Shown in pieces: positions 18,716 to 28,606 of a stretch of 64,000 bases of DNA. Every line of letters begins with the position of its first letter. Within the stretch, counting starts at the first letter, position 1. The notes under the pieces are model-generated. The model worked only from the letters and a program-made list of their open reading frames with translations. It was not told where the DNA came from and ran no database searches. Source of the DNA: Sphingomonas sp. S2-65. Its GTDB lineage: Bacteria; Pseudomonadota; Alphaproteobacteria; Sphingomonadales; Sphingomonadaceae. The DNA lies in NCBI RefSeq assembly GCF_021513175.1, contig NZ_CP090953.1, forward strand, positions 3,733,931 to 3,797,930, read 5' to 3'. The position numbers and the translations under genes are program-made.

Positions 18716-19482
18716 TAGCCGTACCTTCCGGTGATGTAGTCTTTCGTCCGCTCTTCGCGCGGCGCGGTGAAGATGTTGTCGGTGTCGCCATATTCCACCA
18801 GATTGCCCAAGTGGAAAAACGCAGTGCGCTGGCTCACGCGCGCCGCCTGCTGCATGTTGTGCGTGACGATCACGATCGCATAGCGGCCGCGAAGCTCGTG
18901 GATCAGTTCCTCGATCTTCGCCGTGGCGATCGGGTCGAGCGCGGAAGCCGGCTCGTCCATCAGGATCACTTCGGGATCCACGGCGATCGCCCGCGCGATG
19001 CACAGCCGCTGCTGTTGTCCGCCGGACAGGGCCGTGCCGCTTTCCTGCAGCCGGTCCTTCACTTCTTCCCACAAGCCGGCCCGGCGCAGCGAGCGCGCGA
19101 CGATCTCCTCAAGGTCCGTCTTCGACGCCGCGAGCCCGTGGATACGCGGGCCATAAGCGACATTCTCGAAGATCGACTTGGGAAACGGGTTCGGCTTCTG
19201 GAATACCATGCCGACCCGCGCGCGCAGCTGCACCACGTCCATGTCGGGCGAATAGATGTCCTCGCCGTCCAGCGTGATCTGCCCTTCGACCCGGGCATTG
19301 CCGATCGTGTCGTTCATCCGGTTCAGGGTACGCAGGAAGGTCGACTTGCCGCAGCCCGAAGGCCCGATGAAAGCCGTCACGCGGTCCATGTCGATGTCGA
19401 TCGAAACGTTCTTCACGGCTTGCTTCTCGCCGTAGAAGACGTTCACGTCGCGTGCGGTCATCTTATGCGGAACGTCGGTCAT
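18715..19482 (-). CDS. pstB: Phosphate ABC transporter ATP-binding protein PstB
   Basis: A 255-residue ATPase. Walker [10 protein letters not shown] lies at 40-48, the Q loop in [12 protein letters not shown], the signature [14 protein letters not shown] and Walker [13 protein letters not shown], with the H loop in [13 protein letters not shown]. It drives uptake through PstC and PstA. The start at 19482 was chosen because it matches family length and overlaps the pstA stop; a longer frame upstream lies inside pstA. Confidence 0.97.
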
Positions 19483-20807
19483 CACCAGCGGGTCTCGAAC
19501 TTGTTGCGAAGATAGATGGCGATGCCGTTCATGGCGAGCAGGAACACCAGCAGCACGATGATCGCGGCGCTGGTCTTCTCGACAAAGCCACGGCTGACTT
19601 CGTCGGACCACAGGAAGATCTGAACGGGCAGCACGGTGGCCGGATCGGTCAGGCCCGAAGGCGGCGTCACGATGAACGCGCGCATGCCGATCAGCAGCAG
19701 GGGAGCGGTCTCGCCCAGCGCGCGCGCCATGCCGATGATCGTGCCCGTCAGGATACCCGGCATCGCCAGCGGCAGGACATGATGGAAGACGACCTGGATC
19801 GGGCTGGCGCCGATACCCAGCGCCGCATCGCGGATCGACGGCGGCACCGCCTTGATCGCATTGCGGCTGGCGATCACGATCACCGGCATGATCATCAGGG
19901 CGAGGGTCAGGCCGCCCACCAGCGCCGCGGAGCGGGGAAGCAGCGGACCGAAGCGGTAGCCGAACAGCGACCAGCTGCCGAGGAACACCGCAAGCCCGAG
20001 CAGGCCGAAGATGATCGAAGGGACCGCCGCGAGGTTGTTGATCGACACTTCGATCAGGTCAGTCCAACGGTTCCGCGACGCATATTCTTCCAGATAGATC
20101 GCCGAGAGCACGCCCACGGGAAAGGCGATCAGGAAGGTCACCAGCATCGTCAGCAGCGAGCCCTTGAGCGCACCCCAGATGCCCACCACGACCGGATCGG
20201 TCGAGTCCGACGCCTTGAGGAAGTTCAGGTTGAGATGCCGGGAAACCATGCCCGCATCGCGAAGCTTGGCGACCGCGGCGAGCAACTCCGGCGTGCCGCG
20301 TCCCGCCATGGCCTGATCGATCTCGCTGGAAGCCGGAACCTCGATGCGAACGGTGCGGTCGAGCACCGACGGATCGTGCTTGATCGTATCGCGCACGGCC
20401 ACCCATGCGCTTTCGGAGATGAAGTCCTCGCCGCCATCGCCGAACGCCGCCACGGCCGCGCCCTTGACTGCGTTCTCCAGCCCGGCGCCCGCCAGCGCCA
20501 GATCCGCGCCTGCGGTCTGGAGCTGCGCGCGTTCCACGGTGACGCCGCTCGCCCGGAAGTCGATCGGCAGCGCAATGTCGGTGCGCGTGAACCCACGCCA
20601 GCCCTGCGACATCATCGTGACGAGCAGGAAAGCCAGGAACGCAGCCGACAGCACCACGGCCGCCAGCCCGAAGAAGCGGAACCGGCGCTCCGCGGCATAC
20701 CGCCTGCGGATGCGCCGCTGCATCGACTGCGTCTTCCAGTCGGTCGGTGCACGCTCCGCGGGCTCGTGGCCCTCGATCGGCAACTGGGGGATCAGCGAGC
20801 TACTCAT
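19482..20807 (-). CDS. pstA: Phosphate ABC transporter permease PstA
   Basis: A 441-residue inner-membrane permease. The C-terminal 250 residues are the ABC permease domain, with the EAA-like loop [20 protein letters not shown]. The N-terminal 180 residues (one membrane helix then a large region, DUF3333-like) are longer than in E. coli PstA, as is usual in alphaproteobacteria. It shares 8 nt with pstC and ends at the pstB start. Confidence 0.95.
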
Positions 20808-22176
20808 ACGCTTCCCGGTACCGCTTGACGACGCGCAAGGCGACGATGTTGAGCATCAGCGTGATCACGAACAGCGTCAGGCCAAGCGCGAACGCAGCGA
20901 GTGTCTTGGGGCTGTCGAACTCGCTCTCGCCGGTCAGCAGATCGACGATCTGCTTGGTGACGGTGGTCGCGCTCTCGAATGGGTTGAGCGTGATATTCGC
21001 GGCACCGCTCGCGGCCATCACCACGATCATGGTCTCGCCGATCGCGCGGCTGACGGCCAGCAATATACCGGCCACCACCCCGGGCAACGCGGCCGGGATC
21101 AACACGCGGGAGATCGTCTCGCTGGTGGTCGCCCCCATCGCCAGGCTTCCGTCCCGCATCGCAGTGGGCACAGCCGCGATCGAGTCGTCGGCCATCGACG
21201 ATACGAACGGGATGATCATCACGCCCATCACCAACCCGGCCGCCAGCGCGCTTTCGGAACTGGCATAGGGAAAGCCGAGCGCGACGGCGAGGTCGCGGAC
21301 CGCCGGCGCAACCGTCAGCGCCGCGAAATAGCCATAGACGACGGTCGGAACGCCCGCGAGGATCTCGAGGATCGGCTTCATCCAGCGCCGCACCTTTGGC
21401 GCGGCATATTGGGTGAGATAGATCGCGCTCATCAGGCCGAACGGGATCGCCACGATCATCGCGATCACCGCGCCGATGAAGAAGGTGCCCCAGAACAGCG
21501 GCACCGCACCCAGCGACTTGCCGGGCCGGGCCGGATCGATCACCTGCGGGCTCCAATGCGTGCCGAACAGGAAGTCGGTGATCGATACCTGTCCGAAGAA
21601 CCGCAGCGACTCCCACAGCAGCGACAGGAAGATCCCCAGGGTGGTGAGGATCGCAATGAGCGAAGCTACGAGCAGCACCAGCATCACGCCGCGCTCGACG
21701 CGGCTCCGGGCCGGAAAGTTGGCGCGAATGCGGGTAAAGGCGAGGGCGCCGCTGGCAAAGGCGAGCAGGATGGCGATTGCAGTGCCGATCCACGCGTAGC
21801 GCGTCTCCGCGATCCGGGTCGGCGCCACCAGTTGCTGTGCGACGGGATCGAAGGCGGTGGCGCCTGGCTCGTCGGCAACCCGACTGGCTTCGGCCAGCAG
21901 CGCGTCACGCTCGAAATCGAACTGGGGCAGCTGCGCGGCTGCGGGGTGTTCGAGCACTTCCTGCTTCACCAGCGTAGGCGAGACCGCGCTCCAGGCCGCA
22001 ACGAACAGCAGCGCCGGCAGCACGACCCAGATCGCAACGAAGAAGCCATGCTGTGCCGGCAGCGAGTGGAGGCGCTTGGCTCCGCCGCGATCGAATCCGG
22101 CGGCGCGCGCACGCGCGGTCAGCCAGCCGATCAGGCCAAGGCCGGCAATCAGGAAGAGGAGGGCGAGTGCGTTCAC
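20800..22176 (-). CDS. pstC: Phosphate ABC transporter permease PstC
   Basis: A 458-residue permease. Two or three membrane helices and a periplasmic stretch fill the first 180 residues. They are followed by the transport domain from FFIGAVIAMIVAIPFG with the coupling loop DGSLAMGATTSETISRVLIP. As with PstA, the N-terminal extension is the long alphaproteobacterial form. It lies 10 bp downstream of pstS. Confidence 0.95.
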   Translation of the reverse strand: MNALALLFLIAGLGLIGWLTARARAAGFDRGGAKRLHSLPAQHGFFVAIWVVLPALLFVAAWSAVSPTLVKQEVLEHPAAAQLPQFDFERDALLAEASRVADEPGATAFDPVAQQLVAPTRIAETRYAWIGTAIAILLAFASGALAFTRIRANFPARSRVERGVMLVLLVASLIAILTTLGIFLSLLWESLRFFGQVSITDFLFGTHWSPQVIDPARPGKSLGAVPLFWGTFFIGAVIAMIVAIPFGLMSAIYLTQYAAPKVRRWMKPILEILAGVPTVVYGYFAALTVAPAVRDLAVALGFPYASSESALAAGLVMGVMIIPFVSSMADDSIAAVPTAMRDGSLAMGATTSETISRVLIPAALPGVVAGILLAVSRAIGETMIVVMAASGAANITLNPFESATTVTKQIVDLLTGESEFDSPKTLAAFALGLTLFVITLMLNIVALRVVKRYREAYE

Positions 22177-22186
22177 GGTAGCGATC

Positions 22187-23281
22187 TCAATGCAGGTCGG
22201 CTGGGTTCAACGCCAGTCGCTGCGCGACCACCTGACCGGCCCGCGCGCGAATTGCGTTGGGAGCGGCGATCAGGCCCCGCGAGGCCAGCCTGCCGCCCGG
22301 GTTCCACATGCTGGTGTACAGCTGCAGGAAGTCTGACAGGCCAGGAACCGCGCGAAGATGCCGCTTCTTGACGTAAAGGTATAGCGGGCGGGCACCTGGA
22401 TACTCGCCAGAGGCAATCGTCTGCGCCGTGGGGGCGATACCGTCGACCGGCGCACCGCGCAGCCGATCGGCATTTTCCTCCAGATAGGAATAGCCGAACA
22501 CGCCCAGCGCATTGGGATTGGCGGCAAGACCCTGGACGATCAGATTATCGTTCTCGCCCTTGTCGATATAGGGTCCGTCGTCGCGGATGCGCTTGCAACG
22601 CTCCTCGAACGCGGCCTGATTGGTCTGCGCCTTGAGCGCCTTGGCTTGCGGATCCGCCTCCACGCAGCCGGGTGCCAGGATCAATTCGACCAAAGCGTCC
22701 CGCGTGCCGCTGGTGGACGGTGGGCCCATGACCTGGATGGGAAGGGCAGGCAGCGCCGAATTGACGTCGCGCCAGGTACGCGCGCGGTTCGGCTGGCCGT
22801 TCGGGTTCGCGGCCAGCGCCAGGTACAGGTCGCGCTTGCTGAGACGCAGATTGGGGCCGTTCTTCGCCTCGGCGATCGCCACGCCGTCGATGCCGATCTG
22901 CACTTCCAAGATCTCGCCGACGCCGTTGCGCTGACACAGGGCATATTCCGACTTCTTGATGCGCCGCGAGGCATTGGCGATGTCGGGGAACTCCCAGCCC
23001 ACGCCGGCACAGAACCGCGCGATGCCGCCGCCAGTGCCGATCGATTCCACTACCGGCGCCTTGCGGCCGCCGCCCTGGTTCACGAACGCTTCGGCCACCG
23101 CGGTGGTGAAGGGATATACGGTGGAGGAGCCGACGACGCGGATTTCCCGCGCCGTGTTGCTGCCACAAGCGGTCAGCGCGAGCGCGCCCGCTATCAGTGC
23201 CAGCCTGCCGATAATCGCCGTTCCCCCATTTCGAAGCACGAGTCGAACAAATGCCTCGCCGGATGCGCTGTCTTGCAACAC
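22187..23281 (-). CDS. pstS: Phosphate-binding lipoprotein PstS
   Basis: A 364-residue solute-binding protein. A lipoprotein signal (LALIAGALALTAC, lipidation at the Cys) is followed by the phosphate-binding fold: VVGSSTVYPFTTAVAEAF, ESIGTGGGIARFC and PSTSGTRDALVEL. The GTG at 23281 is 10 bp past the phoR stop with an AAGG site. A GTG at 23239 would give a shorter signal but has no ribosome site. Its position between phoR and pstC puts the kinase first in a seven-gene operon. Confidence 0.93.
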   Translation of the reverse strand: MLQDSASGEAFVRLVLRNGGTAIIGRLALIAGALALTACGSNTAREIRVVGSSTVYPFTTAVAEAFVNQGGGRKAPVVESIGTGGGIARFCAGVGWEFPDIANASRRIKKSEYALCQRNGVGEILEVQIGIDGVAIAEAKNGPNLRLSKRDLYLALAANPNGQPNRARTWRDVNSALPALPIQVMGPPSTSGTRDALVELILAPGCVEADPQAKALKAQTNQAAFEERCKRIRDDGPYIDKGENDNLIVQGLAANPNALGVFGYSYLEENADRLRGAPVDGIAPTAQTIASGEYPGARPLYLYVKKRHLRAVPGLSDFLQLYTSMWNPGGRLASRGLIAAPNAIRARAGQVVAQRLALNPADLH

Positions 23282-23291
23282 GGTTACGCCT

Positions 23292-24506
23292 TTATGACAC
23301 GGACTGCAGGGGAAGAAGGATGGTCACGGCCGTGCCCTTGCCCACCACACTGGAGATGTCCAGCCGGCCGCGGTGCCGCTCTACGACATGTTTGACGATC
23401 GCCAGCCCCAGACCGGTGCCGCCCAGCGATCGGCTGCGCCCGGAATCCACGCGATAGAAACGCTCGGTTAGGCGGGGCAGGTGCTGCGCCGGAATTCCTT
23501 CGCCCTCGTCGGTAACCGTCAGGCGAACCATCGACGTGCCGTCCGGGATCAGCGTAACCGTCACGGGCGTGCCTTCGCGTCCATATTTCATGGCGTTGCC
23601 GATGACGTTGTGGAGCAACTGGCTCAGCTGCGTCATGTCGCCGCGGATGGGCGGCACGTCTCCGATCTGCGTCACCACGTCCGCCGCACGCGGGCTGCCC
23701 GACAGTTCCTGACAGACCTGGCCGACCAGATCGCCCATGTTCACGGACTGGTTGGGTGCGCGGTACTTTTCCGCCTCGATCCGGCTGAGCGAAATCAAGT
23801 CGTCGATCAGCCGCTGCATCCTGCGCGCCTCGCCGAACATGATCTTGAGGAACCGCCCGCGGATCTCTGGATCGTCGCCGGCCTCGTCGGCGAGAGTCTC
23901 GACATAGCCGAGCAGCGACGCGAGCGGGGTGCGCAGCTCGTGGCTGGCATTCGCCACGAAGTCGACGCGCATCCGTTCGGCGGCGTAGCTGCCGGTGCGG
24001 TCGATCAGATGAACGACGCGCCTGCCGTCATCGAGATTGCGCATCCGCATCTCCCAGCGCTGCTCGCGCGCGCCCAGGCCCACCAGGTGGATCGGGCCGC
24101 CATTGGCGCCGTCCTGCGGGTCCATCAACCTTTCGGCCGCGGCGGGATGGCGGATCGCGACTCGCACGTCCTCGCCCAGTATGTGCTGCCCCAGCAGCTC
24201 GCGCGCGCCCTGGTTCGCGGCTTCGACATGGTGGTCGGCGATGACCAACAGCGGTTCGGCGATCGCTTCGATCACCGCCGCAAGCTGCGGGGCCTGTACC
24301 GCCGCTGGCACTGCCGGCGCCGCCACGATGGCGGTCGGCGCGTCGTCATGGGCGCCCGATGCCACCAGCACCGCCGCGACCCCGCAGACCAGCACGATCA
24401 AGCCGCCTTGCGCGTCCCCATTCATCAACAGGCTGGCGAGTGCGCCCAGCGCGACCAGCGCGATGGCGAGGAAGGAACGCAATCCAAAGAACACGGGCAT
24501 CGGCAT
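23292..24506 (-). CDS. phoR: Phosphate regulon sensor kinase PhoR
   Basis: A 404-residue histidine kinase. Two N-terminal membrane helices (about residues 7-28 and 35-50) precede a PAS-like region. The H box has His189 (VANASHELRTPL), followed by N box NVIGNAMKYG, G1 DEGEGIP and G2 GGTGLGLAIVKH. There is no large periplasmic domain, as expected for PhoR, which senses phosphate through PstSCAB and PhoU. It is the first gene of the operon. No clear Pho box is visible in the 76 bp that separate it from the divergent cassette at 24583. Confidence 0.95.
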   Translation of the reverse strand: MPMPVFFGLRSFLAIALVALGALASLLMNGDAQGGLIVLVCGVAAVLVASGAHDDAPTAIVAAPAVPAAVQAPQLAAVIEAIAEPLLVIADHHVEAANQGARELLGQHILGEDVRVAIRHPAAAERLMDPQDGANGGPIHLVGLGAREQRWEMRMRNLDDGRRVVHLIDRTGSYAAERMRVDFVANASHELRTPLASLLGYVETLADEAGDDPEIRGRFLKIMFGEARRMQRLIDDLISLSRIEAEKYRAPNQSVNMGDLVGQVCQELSGSPRAADVVTQIGDVPPIRGDMTQLSQLLHNVIGNAMKYGREGTPVTVTLIPDGTSMVRLTVTDEGEGIPAQHLPRLTERFYRVDSGRSRSLGGTGLGLAIVKHVVERHRGRLDISSVVGKGTAVTILLPLQSVS

Positions 24507-24582: not shown

Positions 24583-24972
24583 ATGGCCGACGAACCGCAA
24601 GGATCCGAGACGACCCGCCGCCGCGCATTGATGCTCGGCGCGGCAGGTGCATCGGCGATCGTGTCGATACGCCCGGCGCTGGCGCAGACCAGTGCGTCGA
24701 TCACCAATTGCGAGATCCCGGTGCCCGATCCCGGCCGTGCCGGCAGCTACATCGCCGCGGATGGATCGCTGGTCCCCGCCGGAACGCCAGGCGCGTTCCC
24801 GCCGCCAAGCGGCACCTTCAAGGCGGAGGATGTTCAGCGCGCGCTCGCGGGGGGCAATTTGCCGGGGGCGGATTACGACCGCAGCCGCGCCTACACCAAC
24901 TATATCCGCCGCTTGCAATCGGGCACCAGCGGCTTCACGTGCTTCGCGTCGCTGCAGATGCCACGCGGCTGA
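24583..24972 (+). CDS. Tat-signal small protein heading the HPr-rel-A cassette (candidate substrate)
   Basis: A 129-residue protein of no known family. A twin-arginine signal (TTRRRALMLGAAGASA, RRR at 12-14) ends near ALAQ at 32-35. The mature part of about 95 residues is rich in Pro, Gly, Ser and Thr, with only two cysteines (Cys43, Cys120). It ends SGTSGFTCFASLQMPRG. It lies 4 bp ahead of a PqqD-like chaperone gene, which suggests it is what the chaperone, kinase and nucleotidyltransferase act on. That is inference from position. The start gives a complete Tat signal; an ATG at 24538 would add 15 residues. Confidence 0.65.
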   Translation: MADEPQGSETTRRRALMLGAAGASAIVSIRPALAQTSASITNCEIPVPDPGRAGSYIAADGSLVPAGTPGAFPPPSGTFKAEDVQRALAGGNLPGADYDRSRAYTNYIRRLQSGTSGFTCFASLQMPRG

Positions 24973-24976
24973 CGCC

Positions 24977-25261
24977 GTGCCGCCTCCCGCCTATCGCGCC
25001 GCGCGCGAGGTGACCCTTCGGGTCGTCCCGCTCGATGCGCTTACCCTGATATACCACCGAGCATCCGGAATCACGCATGTCGTGGATGCGCCGGTGCCCG
25101 AGATATTGCAGGAACTCGGTGACGAGGCGCTGACCGCACCGGCGCTGCTGGCGCGAATGGCCGACCGGTTTGCCTTGATCGATGCCGACGGCGCGGCACT
25201 AGAGGCGCGGCTTGAGGAACTGGTAATCGCGGGGCTGGTGGAGCGCGTGTGCGCCACGTGA
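24977..25261 (+). CDS. HPr-rel-A system PqqD-family peptide chaperone
   Basis: A 94-residue PqqD-like protein. It shows the winged-helix pattern of RiPP recognition elements: strands REVTLRVVPLDALTLIYHR and ITHVVDAPVPEILQEL, then helices ALTAPALLARMADRF and LEARLEELVIAGLVE. PqqD-family proteins bind a leader or core peptide and present it to modifying enzymes. The start is GTG at 24977, 4 bp after the previous stop. Its own stop overlaps the kinase start (GTGA). The family name is from my knowledge of sphingomonad genomes. Confidence 0.8.
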   Translation: MPPPAYRAAREVTLRVVPLDALTLIYHRASGITHVVDAPVPEILQELGDEALTAPALLARMADRFALIDADGAALEARLEELVIAGLVERVCAT

Positions 25262-26109
25262 CGCAGTTGCGCATCGGGCCGGTGGGGTTCCGGGTCGGGA
25301 GCGACTGGCGGCAGCCGATCGCCGCGCTCCAGGATCTGTACCGCGACTATCCCGCACCCGAGGATGGCATTCCCGATTTCAACGTCCACCTGTTCGCCGC
25401 TCGCCCGTGGCGCCGCGTGCTGAGGCCGGCGGTGCACATCGGCGGCGACTTCGTCATGCCGGGCGCCGCGCCGTTGCCGCTCGCCCAGGGCTTGCTGGCG
25501 GCGGAAATGGGAATGAACCTGCAGATGGCGCTCGGCCAGCGCCGCTATCTTCTGCTGCATGCCTCGGCGGTCGAACGCGGCGGCAAGGCATTGCTGATGA
25601 CCGGCCTGTCGGGGGCGGGCAAGTCGACCCTCGCGGCACTGCTGATGGCGCGCGGCTGGAGGCTGATGGGTGACGAGTTCGCGCTGATCGATCCCGACAC
25701 GGGACTGGTGCACGGCTTCCCGCGGCTGATCAGCCTGAAGAACGAAGCGATCAGGGTAGCGCAACGGGCATTGCCAAAGGCGCGGTTCGGCCCGCTTCTC
25801 GAGGGAACGCCCAAGGGCACGATCCGGCACCTGGTGCCAGATGCGGCGGCGATCGCGGCGATGGCGCGCCCAGCGGTGCCGGCTTTGCTGCTGTTCCCGA
25901 GCTTCGGTTTCGAAGCCGGCGAACGCGAAGTACTGCCCAGCGAAGTGTTCGTCCGCCTTACCCAGGCGTCGACCAACTATGTCGCCCTGACCGAGCGCGG
26001 CTTCACTGCGCTTGCCGACCTGGTCCGCACCGTGCCGGCACGCGCCATCGACTATCCCGACACTGCCACCGCGCTTGCCCAGGTCGAACGGCTGTGGAGC
26101 GCCCTATGA
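25258..26109 (+). CDS. HprK-related kinase A
   Basis: A 283-residue protein resembling the C-terminal catalytic domain of HPr kinase/phosphorylase. It has Walker A GLSGAGKST at 116-124, His101 in LLLHASAVERGG just ahead, and GDEFALID at 138-145 at the catalytic-acid position. The N-terminal 90 residues are not HprK-like. HprK phosphorylates a serine in HPr; related kinases in some lasso peptide clusters phosphorylate a peptide serine. The target here is unknown. The GTG at 25258 overlaps the upstream stop (GTGA); an in-frame GTG at 25249 is the alternative. Confidence 0.85.
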   Translation: MTQLRIGPVGFRVGSDWRQPIAALQDLYRDYPAPEDGIPDFNVHLFAARPWRRVLRPAVHIGGDFVMPGAAPLPLAQGLLAAEMGMNLQMALGQRRYLLLHASAVERGGKALLMTGLSGAGKSTLAALLMARGWRLMGDEFALIDPDTGLVHGFPRLISLKNEAIRVAQRALPKARFGPLLEGTPKGTIRHLVPDAAAIAAMARPAVPALLLFPSFGFEAGEREVLPSEVFVRLTQASTNYVALTERGFTALADLVRTVPARAIDYPDTATALAQVERLWSAL

Positions 26110-27113
26110 CCAGCGGCGCTCTTCTCGTCGGGGCGCTACGGGAGCCGGTATCCACGATCGGCCTGTCTCCTGCGCAATGGACCGCGTTGCTCGCCATCGC
26201 CCGCGCCGAGCAGCTCATCGGCACGCTCGGCTACCGCCTGCACGGCATGCCCGTCCCGGCGCCCGTGGCCAGGATCCTCGAAGAGGCCCGGCACTCGGCC
26301 GAGCAGGGCCGCACCGCCGCCTTGTGGGAAGCGGAGATGGCCCGCCGCGCGCTCGCGCCCGTCGGCATAGCGGTGATCCTGCTCAAGGGCACGGCGTTCG
26401 TCGCCGCGGGCCTGTCGGCGGGGGTAGGGCGCTCGATCGGCGATCTCGACATCCTCGTTCCGCACGCGCGGATCGGCGAAGCCGAGGCGGCGCTGCTCGC
26501 CGCCGGCTGGGAGTGGGTGAAGCCGGACGCCTATGACGATGCCTATTATCGCCGCTGGATGCACGAGTTGCCGCCGCTGATCCACCGCGAGCGCGACCGC
26601 ATGATCGACGTTCATCACACCATCCTCCCGCTCACCGCCCGGATCACGCCGGATGCCGAGGCGCTGATCGCCGACAGCGTCGCGCTGGGAAGCGAGCTGC
26701 GGATGCTCTCGCCGCCGGATGTGCTGTGCCACGCCGCCGCTCACCTGTTCGCCGATGGCGATCTCGCGGGCGGGCTGCGCAACCTGTGGGACATCCACTG
26801 CCTGGTCGAGGAGTGGGGTACCGCAGGCCTCCACGATCGGGCGCGCCTGCACGGCCTCGCGCCCGCGGTGGCCAGGGCGATGCGCCAGGCGCACCGGCTC
26901 TACGGCACTGCGGTTCCCGAGGAATGGCGCGGCTGGACCACCCAGGACGCATTATACCGTCACCGGCTGCTGGCGCGCGACGGCTGGGGCAGGCCGACGC
27001 GGCGCCTCACTAGGCTCGCCTTCTACATGCGCGGCCATGCCCTTCGCATGCCCCCGGCCATGCTGGCCCGCCACCTCGTGACCAAGTGGCGCAAGGGCCA
27101 CGCGCCTGGCTGA
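26106..27113 (+). CDS. Nucleotidyltransferase of the HPr-rel-A cassette
   Basis: A 335-residue protein of the NTP_transf_5-like type. The motif GRSIGDLDILV at 108-118 carries the catalytic acids Asp113 and Asp115 after GRS. A third acid may be in MIDVHHTI, and Lys94 lies in ILLKGTAF. The C-terminal half is helical and basic. Such enzymes attach a nucleotide to a hydroxyl or phosphate. After an HprK-like kinase it could modify a phosphorylated side chain, which is inference. It starts inside the kinase stop codon (ATGA), so the three enzymes are coupled. Confidence 0.8.
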   Translation: MTSGALLVGALREPVSTIGLSPAQWTALLAIARAEQLIGTLGYRLHGMPVPAPVARILEEARHSAEQGRTAALWEAEMARRALAPVGIAVILLKGTAFVAAGLSAGVGRSIGDLDILVPHARIGEAEAALLAAGWEWVKPDAYDDAYYRRWMHELPPLIHRERDRMIDVHHTILPLTARITPDAEALIADSVALGSELRMLSPPDVLCHAAAHLFADGDLAGGLRNLWDIHCLVEEWGTAGLHDRARLHGLAPAVARAMRQAHRLYGTAVPEEWRGWTTQDALYRHRLLARDGWGRPTRRLTRLAFYMRGHALRMPPAMLARHLVTKWRKGHAPG

Positions 27114-27122
27114 TCTTACAGC

Positions 27123-27914
27123 TCAGGCGCCGTGATAGCGCGGCGCCGTCCTGTCTCGGGAGCAGTTCTTTGCCACCAGTGCCTCGGCGGCGGCGTAATT
27201 GTCCCAGTCGCGAATATCGGGCAGCGACGGGATGCACACCGGCTCTTCCATCTCCAGCGCGCGCAGCGAGGCGACCACCAGGTCATCGGCCCGCATCACC
27301 CGTTCGGGTGGGAAGTTCTCGATCGCGTTTCCGGCGACTTCGTGGAAATCGGTGGCGATCACGCCTGGCACCAGCAATTGCACACGCACGCCCGTGCCTT
27401 CCGCCTCGGCCTGCATGTGGCGCGTGAATGCCATCACGTAGTTCTTGGACGCGCCATATCCGGCATTGCCTGGAATCTGCATGAACACCGTGCCCGAAGA
27501 CACGTTGATGATCGTGCCGCGCCCAGCAGCGATCATCGACTTCATCGCGGCAGCGGAAAGCCGGCTGAGCGCAAGGACATTGACTCGCAGCATCGTCTCT
27601 AGCGCGTCAGGATCCAGCTCGGCGACACGCCCGCGTGAGGCATAGCCGGCGTTGTTCACCACCATGTCGACACCGCCCTGCTCAATCCGCGCGACGACCG
27701 CGGCCACGCCCGCATCGCTGCCCAGGTCGGCAGGCAGGATTTCCGCCTCTACCCCGGTAGCGTCCGCCAGCTCGCGGGCGAGATCCTCCAGCCTGTCGGC
27801 GCGCCGCGCGACCAGCACCAGATCGTGGCCGGTGCGTGCCAGATGCTCGGCATAGCTCTTGCCGATGCCGGCGGAAGCGCCGGTCACCAGCGCGCGGGGT
27901 CGTCCGTTGGTCAT
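27123..27914 (-). CDS. Short-chain dehydrogenase/reductase
   Basis: A 263-residue classical SDR. The cofactor loop TGASAGIG lies at 11-18, NNAG at 87-90, catalytic Ser at 139-140, and Tyr153 and Lys157 in YGASK. Arginines after the second strand (ARRADR) favour NADP(H). The substrate cannot be read from sequence. It overlaps the gph stop by 4 nt on the same strand. It converges with the HPr-rel-A cassette with a 9-bp gap. Confidence 0.88.
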   Translation of the reverse strand: MTNGRPRALVTGASAGIGKSYAEHLARTGHDLVLVARRADRLEDLARELADATGVEAEILPADLGSDAGVAAVVARIEQGGVDMVVNNAGYASRGRVAELDPDALETMLRVNVLALSRLSAAAMKSMIAAGRGTIINVSSGTVFMQIPGNAGYGASKNYVMAFTRHMQAEAEGTGVRVQLLVPGVIATDFHEVAGNAIENFPPERVMRADDLVVASLRALEMEEPVCIPSLPDIRDWDNYAAAEALVAKNCSRDRTAPRYHGA

Positions 27915-28606
27915 GCAATGCTCCTGTGGTTCGGCTCCCCCAAACGCACGAGCGTCGGCACAAGCTCAACGAAATGATCGATGACGGCGTTCGCGCCGAG
28001 CGCATGCACGCCATCGCCCAGGAAGCCGAAGCTTACCGCGATGCTCGGCACGCCGGCACTACGCGCAGCCTCTATATCAAAGCGTGAATCCCCGACGAAC
28101 GCCGCGCGCCCGCCGCCGCACCGCTTGATCATCTCGAACAGGGGAACAGGGGAGGGCTTGGCGGTGCCGGGCCCAAGACTGTCTCCGCCGATCACGGTCG
28201 CGAACGCATGCGCCACGCCCATCGCTTCCAACAGCTCGGTCGCGAGGCGCTCCGCCTTGTTGGTCACCACCGCCAGCGCCACGCCGGCGGACATCAGTGC
28301 CTCCAACGCCTCGGCAAGCCCGGGATAGGGCTCGGTCTGCATGGTCAGGTGCGCTTCGTAGAACCGCATCAGCGCGGGATAGGATCGATTCAGGAGATCA
28401 GGCGTGCAGCCGCCCGTCGCCTCCAGGCCCAGCGCCAGCATGTGGCGCGTACCCTGGCCGATCAGCGTCTTCACCTTGGGGAGCGGCAGATCCGGTCGCC
28501 CAAGCTGTTGAAGCGCGTGGTTCAACGCGCCGGCAAGGTCGGCACTGGTGTCGAACAACGTGCCGTCGAGATCGAACCCGACAATGTCGAAGGCGAAGCC
28601 GGTCAT
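27911..28606 (-). CDS. gph: Phosphoglycolate phosphatase (HAD family)
   Basis: A 231-residue HAD hydrolase. Motif I FDLDGTLFDT supplies Asp12 and Asp14. Motif II is AVVTNKAER, motif III includes KPSPVPLFEM, and motif IV is FVGDSRFD. It removes phosphate from 2-phosphoglycolate formed during DNA repair or oxygenase side reactions. HAD specificity is hard to read from sequence, so the assignment rests on overall likeness to Gph. It is divergent from glmU across 69 bp. Confidence 0.85.
   Translation of the reverse strand: MTGFAFDIVGFDLDGTLFDTSADLAGALNHALQQLGRPDLPLPKVKTLIGQGTRHMLALGLEATGGCTPDLLNRSYPALMRFYEAHLTMQTEPYPGLAEALEALMSAGVALAVVTNKAERLATELLEAMGVAHAFATVIGGDSLGPGTAKPSPVPLFEMIKRCGGGRAAFVGDSRFDIEAARSAGVPSIAVSFGFLGDGVHALGANAVIDHFVELVPTLVRLGEPNHRSIA

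Follow-up and report, generated by a model that had tools for sequence, protein, structure and literature searches.

Within a 64,000-nucleotide stretch of Sphingomonas sp. S2-65 DNA (hereafter the window), four consecutive genes encode a protein with a twin-arginine translocation (Tat) signal, a PqqD-like protein, an HprK-related kinase and a nucleotidyltransferase-like protein (Table 1). The pairing of the Tat-signal protein with these modifying enzymes is well supported across the order Sphingomonadales. We propose, with a probability of roughly 0.6, that the four genes make up a dedicated protein-modification cassette, in which a conserved residue of the Tat-signal protein would be phosphorylated in the cytoplasm and then capped with a glycosyl or nucleotidyl group before the protein is exported by the Tat route; each chemical step is inferred by analogy with the tailoring of lasso peptides.

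Co-occurrence of the Tat-signal protein and the kinase

Among the 147 genomes of the order that we sampled, the kinase family TIGR04352 was found over its cut-off in 79, and two more carried near-full-length kinases that narrowly missed it (197.7 and 187.8 bits), giving 81 kinase genomes that span seven families. A whole-genome search with an alignment of 79 Tat-family sequences (E ≤ 1e-3) recovered the Tat family in the same 81 genomes and in none of the 66 without a full-length kinase, counts that treat all genomes alike and carry no correction for phylogeny. A nucleotidyltransferase at E ≤ 1e-30 was present in 78 of the 147, every one a kinase genome, and in the three kinase genomes without it (G023, G095 and G113) the contig ends within or shortly after the kinase.

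The same arrangement is seen locus by locus. Loci from 80 kinase genomes were taken with up to 6 kb of flanking sequence, the window being the 81st, and profiles iterated from the window proteins matched a Tat-signal protein in 75 of the 81 loci (79 copies, with tandem pairs in four loci), a PqqD-like protein in 79 and a nucleotidyltransferase in 79. The gene order Tat-PqqD-kinase-nucleotidyltransferase is kept in 73 loci; the eight exceptions are two loci without a nucleotidyltransferase match (L053 and L109) and six without an adjacent Tat gene, one of which begins inside the kinase (L102) while five show no Tat open reading frame (ORF; L034, L093, L095, L100 and L104). Because the kinase and Tat genome sets are identical, those five must carry a copy at another genomic position; in the sixth (G045) it is on another contig. 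On the same contig, the two genes lie approximately 164, 280 and 685 kb apart (G035, G080 and G119); in G097 and G053 they are on different contigs, and G053 has the Tat and PqqD genes at one place and the kinase and nucleotidyltransferase genes at another. In genus g30 of family f5 (L208-L214), additional Tat-family paralogs lie outside the cassette, and those of L208-L213, not that of L214, adjoin a conserved pair of genes of about 430 and 117 aa.

A further set of named loci comprised the 80 best of 586, most of them Sphingomonas. All four genes were present in 79 of these, 78 of them in the set order and the remaining one (L228) breaking the spacing rule used for gene order, a recurrence that speaks against chance. 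One record in this context, titled Bacillus sp. 2B10 (L241, RPSH01000014.1), holds a Sphingomonas-type kinase with 76% identity and is probably misassigned.

Sequence conservation of the Tat-signal protein

The 79 Tat-family copies from the loci of the order, with start codons chosen by rule, align with a mean column identity of 15%, and only Arg13, Cys43, Cys120 and Ser123 are invariant. All 79 have the twin arginine and the motif [ST]CxxS; position 119 is Ser or Thr in 79/79, position 39 is Ser in 78/79, and position 28, inside the signal, is Ser or Thr in 78/79. Conservation is concentrated at both ends, the mean relative information being 2.3 bits for residues 13-36, 2.1 for 37-46, 1.15 for 47-114 and 2.4 for 115-125, and the hypervariable middle is often Asp-, Ser- or Gly/Asn-rich among the sequences listed. 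With starts set by the same rule, lengths run from 116 to 298 aa and the number of cysteines is even in 75 of the 79.

The motif extends to sequences beyond this alignment: all 79 Tat ORFs of the named-locus set carry [ST]CxxS, and a database search that scored 7998 candidates returned 2755 homologs at E ≤ 1e-3, of which the 120 best-scoring ones all have both the twin arginine and the motif. Most of these 120 are unnamed; where a name is given it is 'hypothetical' or 'uncharacterized', the one exception being a UniRef name, gluconate 2-dehydrogenase subunit (P0052), possibly a misannotation caused by the Tat signal.

The window protein, which ends in ...TCFASLQMPRG, has the sequence marks of a Tat substrate, with a twin arginine, a hydrophobic region and an A-x-A site with likely cleavage after ALA at residue 34 (judged by eye), and TatC is present in the genome (217.9 bits); its export by this route is a prediction. 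A pattern in the hydrophobic region of the signal, P-x-x-x-[ST]-[LIM], was compared with that of other Tat signals in a background of just 26 sequences, several of which are partner proteins or noise. The first-pass annotation of this DNA had singled out the upstream Tat protein as the likely target of the enzymes, a choice favoured by the identical genome sets, by the pairing being kept where the genes are separated and by the invariant motif.

Gene families and comparison with known systems

That annotation had also treated the four genes as one unit with gaps of 4, -4 and -4 nt, and we confirm the coordinates, the gaps as read directly from the sequence, and the motifs GLSGAGKST and GRSIGDLDILV. 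Its family assignments hold as well: the PqqD-like protein scores 46.8 bits on its NCBIfam model (cut-off 35), the kinase 242.1 bits (cut-off 200), and the fourth protein 167.3 bits on its Pfam model (gathering score 31.2). The first gene has no NCBIfam match at E ≤ 1 and, in Pfam, only a sub-threshold match to a Tat signal (12.7 bits against a cut-off of 24).

The adjacent kinase and PqqD genes, which overlap by 4 nt, both pass curated cut-offs of what NCBIfam calls the HPr-rel-A system, and the pair had already been recognised as a system, as is clear from the model name 'HPr-rel-A system PqqD family peptide chaperone'. These names span only two of the four genes, however, and the candidate substrate belongs to no NCBIfam or Pfam family. 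A literature search for the HPr-rel-A names and accessions, with most subscription journals outside its reach, found no paper.

Both enzymes look catalytically intact from their sequences. In 45 aligned kinases, His101, the Walker A residues including Lys122, Asp139-Glu140 and others are invariant, as are Lys94-Gly95, Arg109, Asp113, Asp115, Asp168 and His170 in 43 aligned nucleotidyltransferases; we take these to correspond to the named catalytic residues of HPrK/P and of nucleotidyltransferases. The structure model of the kinase has a predicted local distance difference test (pLDDT) score of 97.2, and its Foldseek matches are PEPCK (E 8e-8) and HPrK/P (E 3e-5). Thus the window kinase is predicted to share the fold and the Walker A region of HPr kinase/phosphorylase, while scoring just 23.7 bits on TIGR00679 (cut-off 240). 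For the nucleotidyltransferase, no sequence relative at E ≤ 0.1 was found in the PDB.

The closest functional parallel is lasso-peptide tailoring. According to the accessible text of two reviews, HPr-kinase homologs of lasso clusters transfer a phosphate to the side chain of a Ser at the C-terminus, and in pseudomycoidin a nucleotidyltransferase adds one or two hexoses onto the phospho-Ser (PMC8498205; PMC9266682), with nucleotidylation left open in one of them (PMC9266682). As far as these sources describe paeninodin and pseudomycoidin, the window resembles them in its HprK-homologous kinase, its nucleotidyltransferase, its stand-alone RRE-type protein and a proposed Ser target near the C-terminus. 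It differs in its candidate substrate, a Tat-signal protein with cysteines and no lasso precursor; lasso clusters have a short precursor ending in Ser, which this protein of 129 aa is not. The absence of a lasso protease and cyclase, as first reported for this locus, is borne out: the best match to the lasso cyclase NF033535 in the genome reaches 184 bits against a cut-off of 525 and is a TIGR03108 gene at 169982-171862, and the single match to the B2 protease domain PF13471 lies at 2288504, about 1.47 Mb from the cassette. We therefore rejected a lasso cluster; the accompanying statement on radical SAM enzymes and exporters concerned genes that were not searched for. A phosphate capped with a second group had further been put forward as a new type of modification. 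This is not new chemistry, because the pseudomycoidin kinase and nucleotidyltransferase already make a phosphoglycosylated Ser, for which the accessible accounts give hexoses and not a nucleotide.

Kinase partners outside the order

Comparing the neighbours of the kinase had been set beforehand as a test of the pairing. Its expectation held within the order, where every kinase genome has the Tat-signal protein, and not universally outside it. In a survey of 385 genomes of the class, 11 genomes exceeded the kinase cut-off, two of them belonging to the window's own genus, and 10 of the 11 matched the Tat profile. Among the other 374 genomes there were 4 that matched it, including one with a weak kinase match; outside the order, most matches are confined to the N-terminal region of the profile.

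We assembled 41 full-length kinase loci from outside the order. Nine belong to other orders of the same class; the other 32 were drawn from the 48 above the cut-off in a different class of the phylum, taken to be Gammaproteobacteria. By regular expression, 21 have an upstream protein with a twin-arginine signal and the motif, 17 one with the signal and no motif, and three have none upstream on the same strand, although some of the 17 are spurious (the motif protein of L185 is encoded on the other strand, and no convincing partner was seen in L194) and one of the three, L156, has a twin-arginine ORF downstream of the nucleotidyltransferase. Eleven motif proteins of the other class align with four invariant cysteines and an SCWxS or TCWxS motif near the C-terminus, in which Cys, Trp and the last Ser are invariant. 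A second, looser partner type (n = 8) has no CxxS, and several of its members contain a 'SPGyWKN'-like stretch.

These loci hold further genes. In three other-class cassettes a TPR-sulfotransferase (Sulfotransfer_3) stands between kinase and nucleotidyltransferase (L176:4380-6623, L183:4274-5986 and L184:6873-8564). A trypsin-like serine protease with a Trypsin_2 match lies near the cassette of L037 (3467-4237) and is a candidate processing protease; ORFs resembling it, by eye only, are found in L171, L173, L174, L186, L192, L198, L201 and L202. Four loci from other orders of the class (L164, L166, L167 and L168) encode weaker kinase relatives of 377-418 aa with an N-terminal extension, only that of L168 matching the PqqD profile (E 4e-4). 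Nearby are proteins with a twin-arginine leader, 52-90 aa where called and in two copies in L167 and L168; perhaps these loci are a short-precursor branch of the same system.

Chromosomal site and XrtA exopolysaccharide genes

Within the order, the cassette tends to occupy one site (Table 1). In the flanks examined, homologs of phoR are found near 61 of 80 order cassettes, of gph near 63, of glmU near 48 and of glmS near 43; the names phoR and gph derive from counterparts in L032, whose matches are below cut-off (for phoR, TIGR02966 at 311.7 bits, cut-off 334.2). In the window, phosphate-transport-like ORFs, recognised by eye, and the phoR gene occupy 19482-24506, divergent to the cassette.

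Table 1 Features of the cassette and its neighbours in the window
Feature	Position	Strand	Family and features
Tat-signal protein, 129 aa, proposed substrate	24583..24972	+	twin Arg residues 12-13; Cys43, Cys120; motif TCFAS (119-123); no Pfam/NCBIfam family
PqqD-like protein, 94 aa, GTG start, proposed substrate-recognition element	24977..25261	+	TIGR04353, HPr-rel-A system PqqD family peptide chaperone
HprK-related kinase A, 283 aa, GTG start	25258..26109	+	TIGR04352; HPrK/PEPCK fold; His101, Walker A Lys122, Asp139-Glu140 invariant
Nucleotidyltransferase-like protein, 335 aa	26106..27113	+	PF14907; Lys94-Gly95, Arg109, Asp113, Asp115, Asp168, His170 invariant
phoR-type histidine kinase, divergent neighbour, marks ancestral site, outside mechanism	23292..24506	-	homolog (E ≤ 1e-15) near 61/80 order cassettes
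Phosphoglycolate-phosphatase-like HAD protein, neighbour across ancestral site	27911..28606	-	homolog near 63/80 order cassettes

Many of the other-class cassettes are embedded in XrtA-type exopolysaccharide clusters: among the 78 of 128 listed neighbour genes that were scanned, 14 match TIGR03108 and 11 match TIGR03088 (E ≤ 1e-20). In the order, XrtA at 177 bits or more is present in 75 of 81 kinase genomes versus 33 of 66 others, the six kinase genomes without it being assemblies of 60 to 400 contigs; at the curated cut-off the counts are 66/81 and 33/66 (table 66/15/33/33). Fisher's test of kinase against XrtA gives p = 4.5e-9, with genomes treated as independent, the 177-bit threshold chosen after viewing the list and weaker XrtA matches excluded. 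Outside the window's family, 52 genomes have both kinase and XrtA, which are at most 25 kb apart in 35 and on different contigs in 17; in L089, TIGR03108 and XrtA stand directly upstream of the cassette.

The cassette resembles the XrtA/PEP-CTERM system in its setting, lying in or near such a cluster in two classes, with XrtA and TIGR03108 adjoining each other in the window genome (168.5-171.9 kb, the cassette being at 3.76 Mb). It differs in that the Tat-signal protein has no PEP-CTERM-like C-terminus, by eye, and in that no cassette of the window's family has XrtA within 25 kb. The first-pass annotation had called the cassette an orphan, a reading that we reject given its wide distribution, its partial naming by NCBI as HPr-rel-A and its association with XrtA exopolysaccharide genes in two classes.

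Proposed mechanism and alternative explanations

In the mechanism that we propose, the PqqD-like protein would bind the N-terminal signal or leader part of the Tat-signal protein and present it to the HprK-type kinase, which would phosphorylate a conserved hydroxyl, most likely Ser123 of [ST]-C-x-x-S, with Thr119 and Ser39 as other candidates. The PF14907 protein would then elaborate the phosphate with a hexose, as reported for pseudomycoidin, a nucleotide or a sugar-phosphate. The modified protein would exit by the Tat route, which would suit a protein whose modification with cytoplasmic ATP has to precede export. Outside the cell a Cys43-Cys120 disulfide may form, and the protein probably acts at the cell surface together with the XrtA-dependent exopolysaccharide.

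Several observations weigh against this proposal. The co-occurrence is partly that of one ancestral block (phoR-cassette-gph-glmU-glmS), and since loss of the block removes all genes together, it is weaker evidence than 81 independent trials would be; the information comes from the five genomes whose genes are separated, the only ones free of this effect. In one named locus, L221, the other three genes are present and no Tat gene was found within the 16.8 kb examined. The structure model of the Tat-signal protein is poor (pLDDT 70.7), no fold match to it was found, and CxxS could be structural or redox-active instead of a phosphosite. Motif-less exported partners outside the order imply that the kinase family works with partners of different kinds, so that, judging from these sequences, the Ser of CxxS cannot be its universal target. 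As to the exopolysaccharide link, XrtA is within 25 kb of the cassette in 0 of 23 genomes of the window's own family and present in all 23, and its proximity elsewhere in the order may reflect a single old synteny.

The cassette might instead act on a small molecule or on the exopolysaccharide, with a sugar being phosphorylated and activated and the Tat-signal protein serving, unmodified, as a downstream surface partner. The place of other-class cassettes among XrtA exopolysaccharide genes would suit this, as would the GlmU, GlmS and Gph homologs that are frequent neighbours in the order; yet a PqqD-type protein, peptide-binding by its NCBIfam name, accompanies the kinase in 79/81 loci, the Tat-signal protein and the full-length kinase are never apart in 147 genomes, and HPr kinase is well established to act on a Ser of a protein. 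Characterised lasso-peptide relatives likewise target a peptide Ser, as described in the accessible text of PMC8498205, and we regard the small-molecule role as unlikely. To a similar degree we doubt that the Tat-signal protein plays an ordinary structural or redox role at the cell surface, with Ser123 conserved for folding and the enzymes acting elsewhere on it or on another protein. Such a role would agree with the two invariant cysteines and the mostly even cysteine counts, which point to disulfides near the motif, with the near-equal conservation of Ser39 and Ser/Thr119, and with second-type partners that have no CxxS motif; it does not account for the restriction of the protein, within the order, to genomes that carry the kinase, or for the persistence of the motif close to the C-terminus when the middle before it is hypervariable and often of low complexity.

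Two further readings stay closer to phosphorylation of the Tat-signal protein followed by capping. In one, a variant of it, the PF14907 protein is a true nucleotidyltransferase that places a nucleotide instead of a sugar on the phosphate, the capping put forward in the first-pass annotation. We hold this to be possible, and likelier than either explanation above: residues of the nucleotidyltransferase type are invariant, and nucleotidylation in the lasso case is still open in the accessible part of the review (PMC9266682), whereas PsmN, the sole characterised parallel and a putative counterpart of the PF14907 protein, gave hexoses on phospho-Ser. In the other, which we offer only as an improbable extension, the Tat-signal protein would be a surface-glycan carrier: the kinase and the PF14907 protein would build a Ser-O-phospho-sugar on its C-terminal CxxS in the cytoplasm, the protein so primed would be exported by the Tat route, and the XrtA exopolysaccharide would be joined to that site or grown from it, giving a phosphodiester link between protein and polysaccharide that is set up ahead of export.

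Conclusion

Taken together, the cassette is a real and conserved set of genes that probably forms a modification system, poorly described so far, for which a probable substrate family can be named. It may represent a variant of lasso-type phosphate tailoring that acts on an exported protein, and its link to XrtA exopolysaccharide was unexpected. The HPr-rel-A enzymes, which had a name and no explanation, thereby gain a concrete candidate substrate family and a candidate residue. If our proposal is true, lasso-style phosphate capping would extend to exported proteins of 116-298 aa tied to XrtA surface-polysaccharide machinery, and the use of the Tat route by these proteins would have a clear reason, namely modification with cytoplasmic ATP before export.

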